Positions 5,800-9,315 of a stretch of 64,000 bases of DNA are shown in pieces. This stretch comes from Methanosarcina sp. KYL-1. GTDB taxonomy: Archaea; Halobacteriota; Methanosarcinia; Methanosarcinales; Methanosarcinaceae. Under the pieces are notes generated by a model. The model saw nothing but the letters and a program-made list of their open reading frames with translations. It did not search any database and had not been told where the DNA came from. Numbering within the stretch: position 1 is the stretch's first letter; every line of letters starts with the position of its first letter. Both the position numbers and the translations under genes were made by a program. Location: NCBI RefSeq assembly GCF_024372725.1, contig NZ_VOUA01000001.1, positions 1 through 64,000 on the forward strand, given 5' to 3'.

Positions 5800-6453
5800 T
5801 CAGTTATCCCTGTTCTTAAGCAGCAGCCAGGCCCCGCCAAGGATCAGGATTACAGGCAGGAACAATTCATCAAGCCACCTGAACCTCCAGAATATGCCTG
5901 TCCTGTCAAGCAGCAGGTAAGCGCCCACGATAAGTAAAATCGAACCCAGGAGACGGTTGCGGTCTGACTTTTCCCTTATGCCGCCGCCGGCCTGCTTGAG
6001 TTCCTCATGCAGTCCGTTAAGGTTGCTGGTAACGGTTTCTTTTGGAGTCATCTCCACGCTGTCTTCCGTGGGCATGATTACGGCCAGGATTATGTAAATG
6101 ACCAGCCCTACCCCGTCTATGAGAGTAAGGGCCACGAAGGCAAGCCTCACCAGTGTCGGGTCTATCCCTAAGTATTCCCCAAGTCCGCCGCAGACCCCAA
6201 AGAGCATGCGGTTGCTTTTGCTTTTTGTCAGGCGCTTCTTCATGGTGTAGGCGGTGCGCCTCTCTCCTTCGTTTTTCTCTTCTGTCCTTTTTTCTTCGGT
6301 TCCTTCTTCAGCCTCTTCTTCTGTTCCTTTCCTGCTTTCTCTTTCGTTTTCTTTCCAGGGCTCTTTTCCGGTTTCTGCCTCAGGTCTCCCCGGGGCTTCG
6401 GAGATGTCTTCTTCTACTCCCTTTCTGTCCTGGGAGTCGGGATTTTCCTGCAT
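5800..6453 (-). CDS. PspC-domain membrane protein with acidic N-terminal extension
   Basis: A 217-residue membrane protein. Residues 1-70 are charged and low in complexity (Glu/Lys/Arg-rich). A PspC domain follows at about 71-130, with the hallmark LFGVCGGLGEYLGIDPTLVR and one hydrophobic helix. A 35-residue linker leads to two further hydrophobic helices at the C-terminus (LLGSILLIVGAYLLL and FLPVILILGGAWLLL). In bacteria PspC belongs to envelope-stress systems; the archaeal role is unknown. It is paralogous to the interrupted gene at 7064-7849 and is the intact template for reading that one. It starts at ATG (MQENPD), as does the paralogue, and ends at TGA. Confidence 0.85.
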   Translation of the reverse strand: MQENPDSQDRKGVEEDISEAPGRPEAETGKEPWKENERESRKGTEEEAEEGTEEKRTEEKNEGERRTAYTMKKRLTKSKSNRMLFGVCGGLGEYLGIDPTLVRLAFVALTLIDGVGLVIYIILAVIMPTEDSVEMTPKETVTSNLNGLHEELKQAGGGIREKSDRNRLLGSILLIVGAYLLLDRTGIFWRFRWLDELFLPVILILGGAWLLLKNRDN

Positions 6454-6991: not shown

Positions 6992-7063
6992 TTCCCAAAA
7001 AACAATGAAATAAATTTTTCGAGATATGAAGGGTTCGGGAATCTCCGAAAACCTCCTCTCTTT

Positions 7064-7279
7064 TCACTTCCGGTTTTTGTAGAGTAGCCAGGCTCCTCCG
7101 AGGATGAAGATTACGGGAAAGAAGAATTGTTTGAGCCACCAGAATACTGTGTAATCGCTCAGTTCGTTCAGCACGAGGTAAATGCCGGTGATAATTATGA
7201 TCATACCAAGAATCTTTTCGCGCTCCACCCGGTCTATTTTTTCTTCCCCTCCGGGCTTCTCTGCCTGTTCGGACCCCAT
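7064..7279 (-). CDS. C-terminal membrane segment of the second PspC protein, in frame after UAG
   Basis: Seventy-one codons starting with ATG directly after the UAG that ends the PspC frame, in the same reading frame. It encodes a charged linker and two hydrophobic helices (ILGMIIIITGIYLVLNEL and FFPVIFILGGAWLLYKNR) that line up with the C-terminus of the intact 217-residue paralogue. No Shine-Dalgarno sequence precedes its ATG; the preceding bases encode MSKE and are purine-rich but lack GGAGG or GGTG. It may be translated only as a continuation (UAG read-through or pyrrolysine) or by reinitiation. It ends at TGA. Confidence 0.6.
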   Translation of the reverse strand: MGSEQAEKPGGEEKIDRVEREKILGMIIIITGIYLVLNELSDYTVFWWLKQFFFPVIFILGGAWLLYKNRK

Positions 7280-7282
7280 CTA
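7280..7282 (-). other. In-frame UAG between PspC and its C-terminal segment
   Basis: The complement of CTA at 7280-7282 is TAG. It separates two same-frame open stretches that together match a full-length PspC paralogue. In Methanosarcina UAG can encode pyrrolysine. Only one other gene in this window (DUF99) ends in UAG; the other genes I checked end in TAA or TGA. Confidence 0.7.
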
Positions 7283-7849
7283 TTCTTTGCTCATCTCAAT
7301 GCCGCTTTCCGAAGGCATGATGACGGCAAGTATGATGTAGATGACAATCCCTATCCCGTTTAGAAGAGCAAGGAGCACGAAAGCAAGCCTGACAAGTGTC
7401 GGGTCTATCCCGAAGTACTCTCCGAGCCCCCCGCAGACGCCAAAGAGTATTTTGTTGCTTTTGCTCTTTGTCAGGCGGCGTTTCATGGTGTAGGTGGTAC
7501 GTTCTTCTTTAGCCTCTTCGGCTCCCCACACTCTTTCTTTAGCTCCTTCAGCCCCCTCTTTTGCTTCTTCAGCTGCTTCTTTTACTTCTTCGGCCGCCAC
7601 TTTTGCTTCTTCAGCCGCCTCCTTTGCCGCAACTATCTCTTCTTCGGGCAGCCTTCCTCCTATAACTTTTTCTTCCCCTGCAGCCTTTTCCATTGCTTCT
7701 TCTGCAGCTTCTTTTGCAGTTTCCACCTCAGCTTTTACCTCTACTTCTTTCTCCACCTTTTTTCCGACTCCTTCTTCAGGCTCCGGGGCGGTTTTGGAGG
7801 TACCTGCTTCCACGTCCTTTTTTTCAATTGGATCGGGATTTTCCTGCAT
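7280..7849 (-). CDS. PspC-domain membrane protein with long Ala/Glu-rich N-terminus (ends at UAG)
   Basis: A 189-codon frame. Residues 1-115 are an Ala/Glu/Lys-rich region with heptad-like EAAEEAK repeats, probably a long helix or coiled coil. The PspC domain follows (LFGVCGGLGEYFGIDPTLVR) with one hydrophobic helix, then a short tail ending EMSKE and UAG. The paralogue continues at this point (EMTPKE) into a linker and two more helices, so the full product is plausibly 261 residues through the UAG. The start MQENPD is shared with the paralogue. Alternatively, the UAG is a nonsense mutation that truncated the gene. Confidence 0.8.
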   Translation of the reverse strand: MQENPDPIEKKDVEAGTSKTAPEPEEGVGKKVEKEVEVKAEVETAKEAAEEAMEKAAGEEKVIGGRLPEEEIVAAKEAAEEAKVAAEEVKEAAEEAKEGAEGAKERVWGAEEAKEERTTYTMKRRLTKSKSNKILFGVCGGLGEYFGIDPTLVRLAFVLLALLNGIGIVIYIILAVIMPSESGIEMSKE

Positions 7850-7896
7850 ACAGGTAATTCAATTTCAGCGAATTTATATTATTCGTATATATTTTT

Positions 7897-9315
7897 TCAA
7901 TGGCAACCACATTCTTTTTTTTGCCGGAATATCCCGTAAAGCATCAGGGGGAGGAGGAGGACTGCAAATCCGAGCTTTACGGTTTCGGGAAGCATTTCGC
8001 CTGCGCTTCCCAGGGTTGCTGTTGCGCTTATTCCCAGTTTCAGGTAAAGGAAGTCCAGAAGGATTCCCGCTCCCAGGGCGCAGAGGGAAATCACTCCCAG
8101 GTAAAGGGCTGCAGAGCGTTTGCCCAGGAAGCGGGCGACCATTGTAATAGTAGCCGCGTTGGTCGCAGGGCCTGCCAGGAGAAAGACGAAAGCTGTGCCC
8201 GGGCTCATTCCTTTTGCCATCAGGCTTGCTGCAAGGGGGGTCGAAGCTGTTGCGCAGATGTAGAGGGGAATTCCAACCACAAGCATGACCATCATTGAAC
8301 GGAGGCCGCCTCCCAGGTATTCCTGGATCAGGGTGTCAGGGACAGCATAGGATATGGTGCCTGCAAGGAGGATTCCTATGAACATCCATTTCGAAATGTC
8401 TCCCGGAAGTTCGATGTAAGCGTACCGGAGTCCTTCGAGGACTTTTTCTTTTGCGGATTTCCCGGCTTTGCTGCTTTCCTTTTCCCCTTCGATTTCGTGC
8501 CCGCAGCTCCCGCAGCCACAGGAAGAGCTTTCTTTTATCGGGGAGGGAATGGAAAGGGGTATGGTGAAGGGGGAGAGTTTTTCACCGGTTTTGTTGCCGA
8601 TTCCTGCAGGCTTTATTTCTAAAGTTCTAACTCCTGCAGGTTTTGCTACGTTTTTCAAAGCCGCCCCTTTCCCGTCTCCGGAGTTCGCAGCCGTGCTGCA
8701 GCCGCAGGATGATATGTTGCATGAGCTGTCGCTGCATGAGCTGTCACTGCATGAGCTGTCACTGCATGAGCTGCCGGTTTTCGGAGCCCCGATCAGGGTG
8801 GCAACTGCAAGCATCCCTGTCCTGTTTCCCGGCTTTTCCTGTGCTTTTGTCTCCTTCTTTTTTTGCTCATCTCCTATCAGCAGGTTGTCCGCAAGCCCTG
8901 CAAGGAGGGCGGTTGCAAGGGTTGCCAGGGGGCGAAAGACCGTCATCAGGGGGTCCAGGAGGGCGTAGGTGATTGCAATGGAGTCCACGCCGGTCTGGGG
9001 GGTCGAGATAAGGAAAGAGAGGGTTGCTCCCCGGTTTGCCCCTCTTTTCCGTATGGACATGGCGGCAGGGATCACTCCGCAGGAACAGAGGGGAAGGGGC
9101 AGGCCTGCAATGGATGCGTTGACCACGGAGCGGACTTTTCCTGCGGAGGTCCCCAGGTAATCAATGATTTTCTGGTCGGGGACCAGGACGTTCAGGAGGC
9201 CTGCAACCCCGAACCCGAACAGGAGGTAGGGGGCAGCCTCCGTGAATATGTCCCAGGAAGCCAGGAGGACGCCTGATATGACGGCCGTCAGGGTGGACAG
9301 GATCTCAGTGCTCAT
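7897..9315 (-). CDS. Cys-rich permease, SO_0444/ArsP-like heavy-metal efflux family (DUF318)
   Basis: A 472-residue polytopic membrane protein. Two permease halves (about 10-160 and 300-465) each carry hydrophobic helices; the first has PLPLCSCGVIPAA and the second GIPLYICATASTPLAASL, as in two-domain DUF318 permeases. The central cytosolic loop (about 160-290) holds four successive Cys-containing 5-residue repeats (CSDSS type), a CGC motif and then SSCGCGSCGHE. The C-terminus ends ECGCH. These look like soft-metal ligands. It starts 11 bp inside arsR, so the two are co-transcribed. Cu/Zn or arsenical efflux fits; the substrate is unproven. Confidence 0.85.
   Translation of the reverse strand: MSTEILSTLTAVISGVLLASWDIFTEAAPYLLFGFGVAGLLNVLVPDQKIIDYLGTSAGKVRSVVNASIAGLPLPLCSCGVIPAAMSIRKRGANRGATLSFLISTPQTGVDSIAITYALLDPLMTVFRPLATLATALLAGLADNLLIGDEQKKKETKAQEKPGNRTGMLAVATLIGAPKTGSSCSDSSCSDSSCSDSSCNISSCGCSTAANSGDGKGAALKNVAKPAGVRTLEIKPAGIGNKTGEKLSPFTIPLSIPSPIKESSSCGCGSCGHEIEGEKESSKAGKSAKEKVLEGLRYAYIELPGDISKWMFIGILLAGTISYAVPDTLIQEYLGGGLRSMMVMLVVGIPLYICATASTPLAASLMAKGMSPGTAFVFLLAGPATNAATITMVARFLGKRSAALYLGVISLCALGAGILLDFLYLKLGISATATLGSAGEMLPETVKLGFAVLLLPLMLYGIFRQKKECGCH
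8709..8771 (-). repeat. 15-bp in-frame repeat encoding Cys-Ser-Asp-Ser-Ser units
   Basis: GCTGTCACTGCATGA-type units repeat about four times inside the permease gene, each adding five residues and one cysteine. Unit length is a multiple of three, so copy number can vary without a frameshift. Confidence 0.85.

Follow-up and report, generated by a model that had tools for sequence, protein, structure and literature searches.

The PspC locus of the window

The analysed stretch of DNA, here called the window, is the 64,000-nucleotide stretch of Methanosarcina sp. KYL-1. On its reverse strand lies a gene for a PspC protein that is interrupted by an in-frame UAG, with an intact paralogue and a permease gene close by. 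In the following list and below, G000 is the genome of the window and G036-G039 are four species of a sister genus (g5).

7064-7849, reverse strand: UAG-interrupted PspC gene, 261 residues if the UAG is counted as a residue; homologues are interrupted likewise
7849-7280, reverse strand: PspC open reading frame up to the UAG, 189 aa, TAG-terminated
7280-7282, reverse strand: in-frame TAG (UAG), candidate pyrrolysine codon, corresponding to residue 190 of the long form; found at this codon also in G036, G037, G038 and G039
7480-7849, reverse strand: N-terminal charged low-complexity region, rich in Ala, Glu and Lys, differing in length among species
7305-7480, reverse strand: PspC domain (PF04024), residues 124-181, Pfam E = 2.6e-25, omega 0.13
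7067-7279, reverse strand: tail behind the UAG, a 17-codon charged linker and two predicted membrane helices
7850-7890, reverse strand: conserved upstream region with the TATA-like ATATAAAT about 25-30 nt 5' of the ATG, without a Shine-Dalgarno sequence
5800-6453, reverse strand: native intact PspC paralogue, 217 aa, without UAG
7897-9315, reverse strand: neighbouring gene for an ArsP-type permease, whose synteny with PspC extends across the family

A previous sequence-only reading had proposed that the PspC frame ends at the TAG and continues in the same frame as a match to the C-terminus of the paralogue. This was confirmed. The frame stays open for 71 codons past the TAG, up to the TGA at 7064-7066, and the alignment of the 71-aa tail with the C-terminus of the paralogue scores 153, compared to 25.4 ± 4.9 for 3000 shuffles (z = 26). 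The paralogue itself is indeed intact, as had been assumed. The PF04024 match upstream of the TAG reaches 88.4 bits and is above the Pfam gathering threshold of 25. The tail matches LiaI-LiaF-like_TM1 (7e-5) and LiaF-TM (1.1e-3) below the Pfam threshold, the values for PF18917 and PF22570 being 23.3 and 20.2 bits with a gathering threshold of 27, so that the tail is only designated "LiaI/LiaF-like". Similar sub-threshold matches to both families are obtained with the intact paralogue. The AlphaFold2 model of the long form has a pLDDT of 49, and its helix pattern alone was used. Upstream of the coding region, the DNA is 92% identical to that of G036 across positions 7800-7947, and the lack of a Shine-Dalgarno sequence in the 5' region suggests that the PspC mRNA is leaderless or has a short leader. 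A search of the 64-kb window with Rfam returned two tRNAs and nothing else. The adjacent ArsP permease gene contains a low-identity stretch (window 8533-8822) with tandem Cys/Ser repeats (SSCSDSSCSDSSC...), which is variable between species.

The same UAG codon in two genera

Relatives of the gene were collected by scanning prokaryotic species, each represented by one genome, and by a family-wide search. The G036 assembly is a single 4.21-Mb contig and may be Methanosarcina sp. MTP4. The species scan uncovered the TAG, at an identical codon, in BL5_bin.6, UBA9310 and BM5_bin.6 (G037-G039), and the family-wide search located it in all four species of the sister genus that were examined. Together with G000, five species from two genera have the TAG at this codon. 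A sequencing error or a strain-specific mutation, which the sequence-only reading had named as a possible source of the UAG, was rejected because the TAG recurs in five species-level genomes. From the PspC domain onwards, the five UAG-containing genes can be aligned without gaps as far as the final TGA, and immediately past this TGA the similarity among them collapses. Orthologues with unrelated or absent sequence behind the UAG, which would have spoken against translation, were not encountered in these species, all of which carry the homologous tail.

The UAG-containing genes form a single clade (support 98/99). Outside this clade, a fused protein without UAG is present in G008, G023, G034, G035, G059, G060, G110 and G111, and the UAG site is occupied by a sense codon in relatives, for instance by GGA in G034. 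Most Methanosarcina possess a short PspC protein, which ends 12-17 residues past the IMP motif and lacks the tail. The presence of the fused protein in relatives outside the UAG clade suggests that the long form is probably ancestral and that the UAG is a later event in the linker.

Selection on the tail and possible start codons

The dN/dS ratios (omega) were estimated by codon models with F3X4 codon frequencies, which replaced empirical codon frequencies because the test with the latter was uninformative. The PspC part has an omega of 0.13 and the tail one of 0.51; for the latter, neutrality (omega = 1) is rejected (2dlnL = 6.0), based on five sequences and 71 codons. The extension is under purifying selection, moderate, not overwhelming. 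Moreover, the hydrophobic helices of the tail and the family-invariant residues R, LG, G, F-W, P and G-W are retained in the UAG-containing genes. The pairwise omega values of the tail range from 0.18 to 0.47 and are mostly above those of the intact relatives (0.03-0.27). Since the tail is less constrained than the upstream part and than the intact relatives, the long form may be a minor product or may be made in less than full amount. The linker (+1 to +16) is nearly neutral, with an omega of about 0.9-1, as expected of a spacer but equally of untranslated sequence.

The near-neutral linker is relevant for the idea that the UAG is a true stop and that the tail is a separate two-helix protein, which is made by re-initiation or from an internal GTG. 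An ATG directly follows the UAG in G000 and G036, and the only start codon common to all five species is a GTG at codon +18, just behind the linker. However, the codon directly 3' of the UAG is ATG, ATG, AGG, GTT and ATT across the five species, and because of this variability re-initiation at the ATG of the window is no conserved mechanism. No Shine-Dalgarno sequence was found before the ATG that adjoins the TAG in the window, as the sequence-only reading had noted, nor upstream of the GTG at +18; the PspC gene itself is seemingly leaderless. Furthermore, the linker is kept in frame and without indels in the five species, and the outgroups carry a single fused protein. Two separate proteins are quite unlikely in the light of these observations.

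Alternatively, the UAG could be a nonsense mutation by which the protein was cut back to the short form, with the tail left behind as a decaying relic. This idea is in line with the fact that most Methanosarcina have no other form than the short one, whose end lies 12-17 residues past the same IMP motif, and with an omega that is higher for the tail than for the PspC domain. However, neutral simulations, for which the tree was scaled by synonymous distances (total neutral length about 0.7), left all five tails free of stop codons in only 0.6% of the runs (P = 0.006), and neither a stop codon nor a frameshift is present in the tails of the five species. Omega below 1, the retained helices and family-invariant residues and the collapse of similarity right past the final TGA also argue against decay, and we regard a relic as very unlikely. 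The retention of the TAG alone is not significant: a neutral codon would be retained with a probability of about 0.12, and of 21 codons in the vicinity 7 are unchanged as well. Thus, the retention of the TAG does not by itself demonstrate that pyrrolysine or a dual product is selected for. A conserved RNA stem-loop or PYLIS was not found near the UAG (z-scores +0.5 to -1.2, covariation term unfavourable).

Pyrrolysine machinery and usage of UAG

As the sequence-only reading had suggested, the genome of the window was searched for the pyrrolysine genes, and all of them were found. G000 possesses tRNA-Pyl (CUA), encoded by pylT, together with pylS, pylB, pylC and pylD in one cluster and over the NCBIfam cut-offs. 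tRNA-Pyl and pylS are present in all four species of the sister genus; pylBCD were checked in G000. It has been described that the insertion of pyrrolysine requires no cis element and competes with the release factor (PMC8211752). Moreover, the pyl cassette is constitutive in Methanosarcina, in which TAG stops are kept at 4-5% (PMC4153887).

Stop codons were surveyed in 404 kb of G000 and in 320-360 kb of three other genomes, using a simple codon-score gene caller on the sampled DNA. TAG terminates 8 of 283 genes in G000 (404 kb) and 2 of 242 in G036 (360 kb); in samples of two other Methanosarcina, the counts were 9 of 188 and 1 of 188. About 1-3% of the sampled genes end with TAG. Overall, TAG makes up about 17% of the stop triplets, as compared to the few gene ends in the G000 and G036 samples, and the genome of the window strongly avoids UAG at gene ends. 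According to the G036 sample, the sister genus makes hardly any use of UAG as a stop, and one of the two TAG-ended genes in these 360 kb is that for PspC (sample position 216100, reverse strand). Three of the eight TAG-ended reading frames of G000 continue as clear coding sequence, namely those for the known pyrrolysine enzymes MtbB and MttB and that for PspC, and the remaining ones have extensions of 1-43 residues. The genes for MtbB and MttB, both with an in-frame UAG, lie side by side on the contig of the window (L167:6159-9311, i.e. G000:C1:330159-333311). A second UAG candidate in G000 is a repeat-rich, secreted-looking protein (L162:2026-3321, reverse strand), by eye a NosD-like beta-helix, which continues in frame across a UAG at G000:C1:226899-226901 (...TIRGAVS, then ...NDTPRTPAG).

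The read-through of the UAG by a near-cognate ordinary tRNA, yielding a little extended protein in which Gln, Lys, Tyr or a similar residue takes the place of the UAG, needs no special machinery at a leaky UAG and would fit the purine that follows the UAG in all five species, but it is hardly credible because the dedicated CUA tRNA and its synthetase, present in all five, would outcompete near-cognate tRNAs and because UAG hardly ever serves as a terminator.

Origin of the UAG-containing copy

The synonymous distance (dS) between G000 and the sister genus is 0.34-0.46 for the UAG-containing PspC gene, as compared to 0.8-1.4 for the syntenic neighbours. The similarity of G000 to the sister genus peaks in the window at about positions 7050-8100, including non-coding upstream DNA. 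This region, whose identity to the sister genus is above that of its surroundings, is a probable recombination tract. The native paralogue at 5800-6453 is closest to the single full-length copy in G008 and G023. The low dS and a similarity peak that spans non-coding DNA suggest that the UAG-containing gene of G000 was probably acquired horizontally from a g5-like donor and was placed beside the native intact copy. This probable acquisition and the existence of only the short form in most Methanosarcina go beyond what had been deduced from the window.

A model for the translation of the UAG

With a probability of roughly 0.8, the UAG is read as an amino acid, most likely pyrrolysine, and the gene yields the 261-residue protein together with some 189-residue form. 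The sequence-only reading had favoured pyrrolysine or read-through, and the conserved UAG and the constrained, gap-free tail in five species lend support to it. The same UAG followed by an intact continuation in five pyl-bearing species makes pyrrolysine the most likely meaning of the codon, rather than a stop. Ribosomes would read through the UAG, most likely by means of the genome's own tRNA-Pyl. The long product would be a membrane protein consisting of PspC domain, linker and two helices, and residue 190 would most likely be pyrrolysine because the machinery is present and UAG is rare as a stop. Where the release factor wins at the UAG, some short form of 189 residues would be made. We infer both forms and the membrane topology. 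Partial termination would probably be harmless because the short form ends at the natural end of the short PspC proteins of most Methanosarcina.

The UAG would have arisen in the cytoplasmic linker, where any residue would be tolerated, in the sister genus or its ancestor. Later, the UAG-containing gene would have passed to the Methanosarcina of the window, next to the native intact copy. Regulation by the UAG is speculative: partial termination could set the ratio of the short to the long form through the supply of charged tRNA-Pyl. That this supply indeed controls the two forms and that selection for a dual output maintains the UAG is a rather unlikely extension of the model.

Comparison with known systems

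Like the PspC gene, the genes for the methyltransferases MtmB, MtbB and MttB contain an in-frame UAG, and in G000 those for MtbB and MttB are equally interrupted by TAG. However, pyrrolysine is catalytic and universally conserved in these enzymes, whereas the UAG of the PspC gene is located in a variable linker. Heinemann et al. (2009), as cited in PMC8211752 and PMC4153887, reportedly described a Methanosarcina Thg1 (tRNA-His guanylyltransferase) with pyrrolysine. The UAG appeared in a non-methyltransferase gene also in this case, and in Thg1 as in PspC it would be tolerated because the cell suppresses UAG. Compared with Thg1, PspC differs in being a membrane protein, in having the UAG in two genera and in having seemingly moved horizontally.

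Several pyrrolysine-containing proteins, among them Cas1 and MtxX, have been predicted for Ca. M. alvus (PMC4153887 Table 7). Similar to the PspC gene, the genes of these candidates are interrupted by UAG, continue with homologous sequence and belong to a genome in which TAG stops are avoided, but PspC is not among them and conservation across species is mostly lacking (PMC4153887). Fusions of PspC with LiaI-LiaF-TM are common, and LiaI-LiaF-TM has been transferred to Euryarchaeota (PMC11237479). The intact fusions share the domain order with the UAG-containing PspC gene but they are uninterrupted, whereas in the gene of the window the UAG separates the two membrane parts.

Implications

PspC was not found among the published pyrrolysine candidates in the open-access papers that were consulted, including older computational surveys. 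In this literature, conserved candidates outside the methylamine methyltransferases are few and comprise Thg1, transposases, a TetR regulator and single-genome predictions. The candidate PspC protein, a membrane protein from five species of two genera with an apparent transfer between the genera together with its UAG, appears to be better conserved than most of the non-methyltransferase candidates that were found. Gene finders will cut UAG-containing proteins at the UAG. A natural experiment is provided by the intact paralogue that G000 also carries and by the short and long forms in the relatives. The gene lends itself to tests of how an organism copes with a stop codon of ambiguous meaning. 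If true, short and long PspC forms that are controlled by the UAG would link methylamine metabolism to envelope stress.
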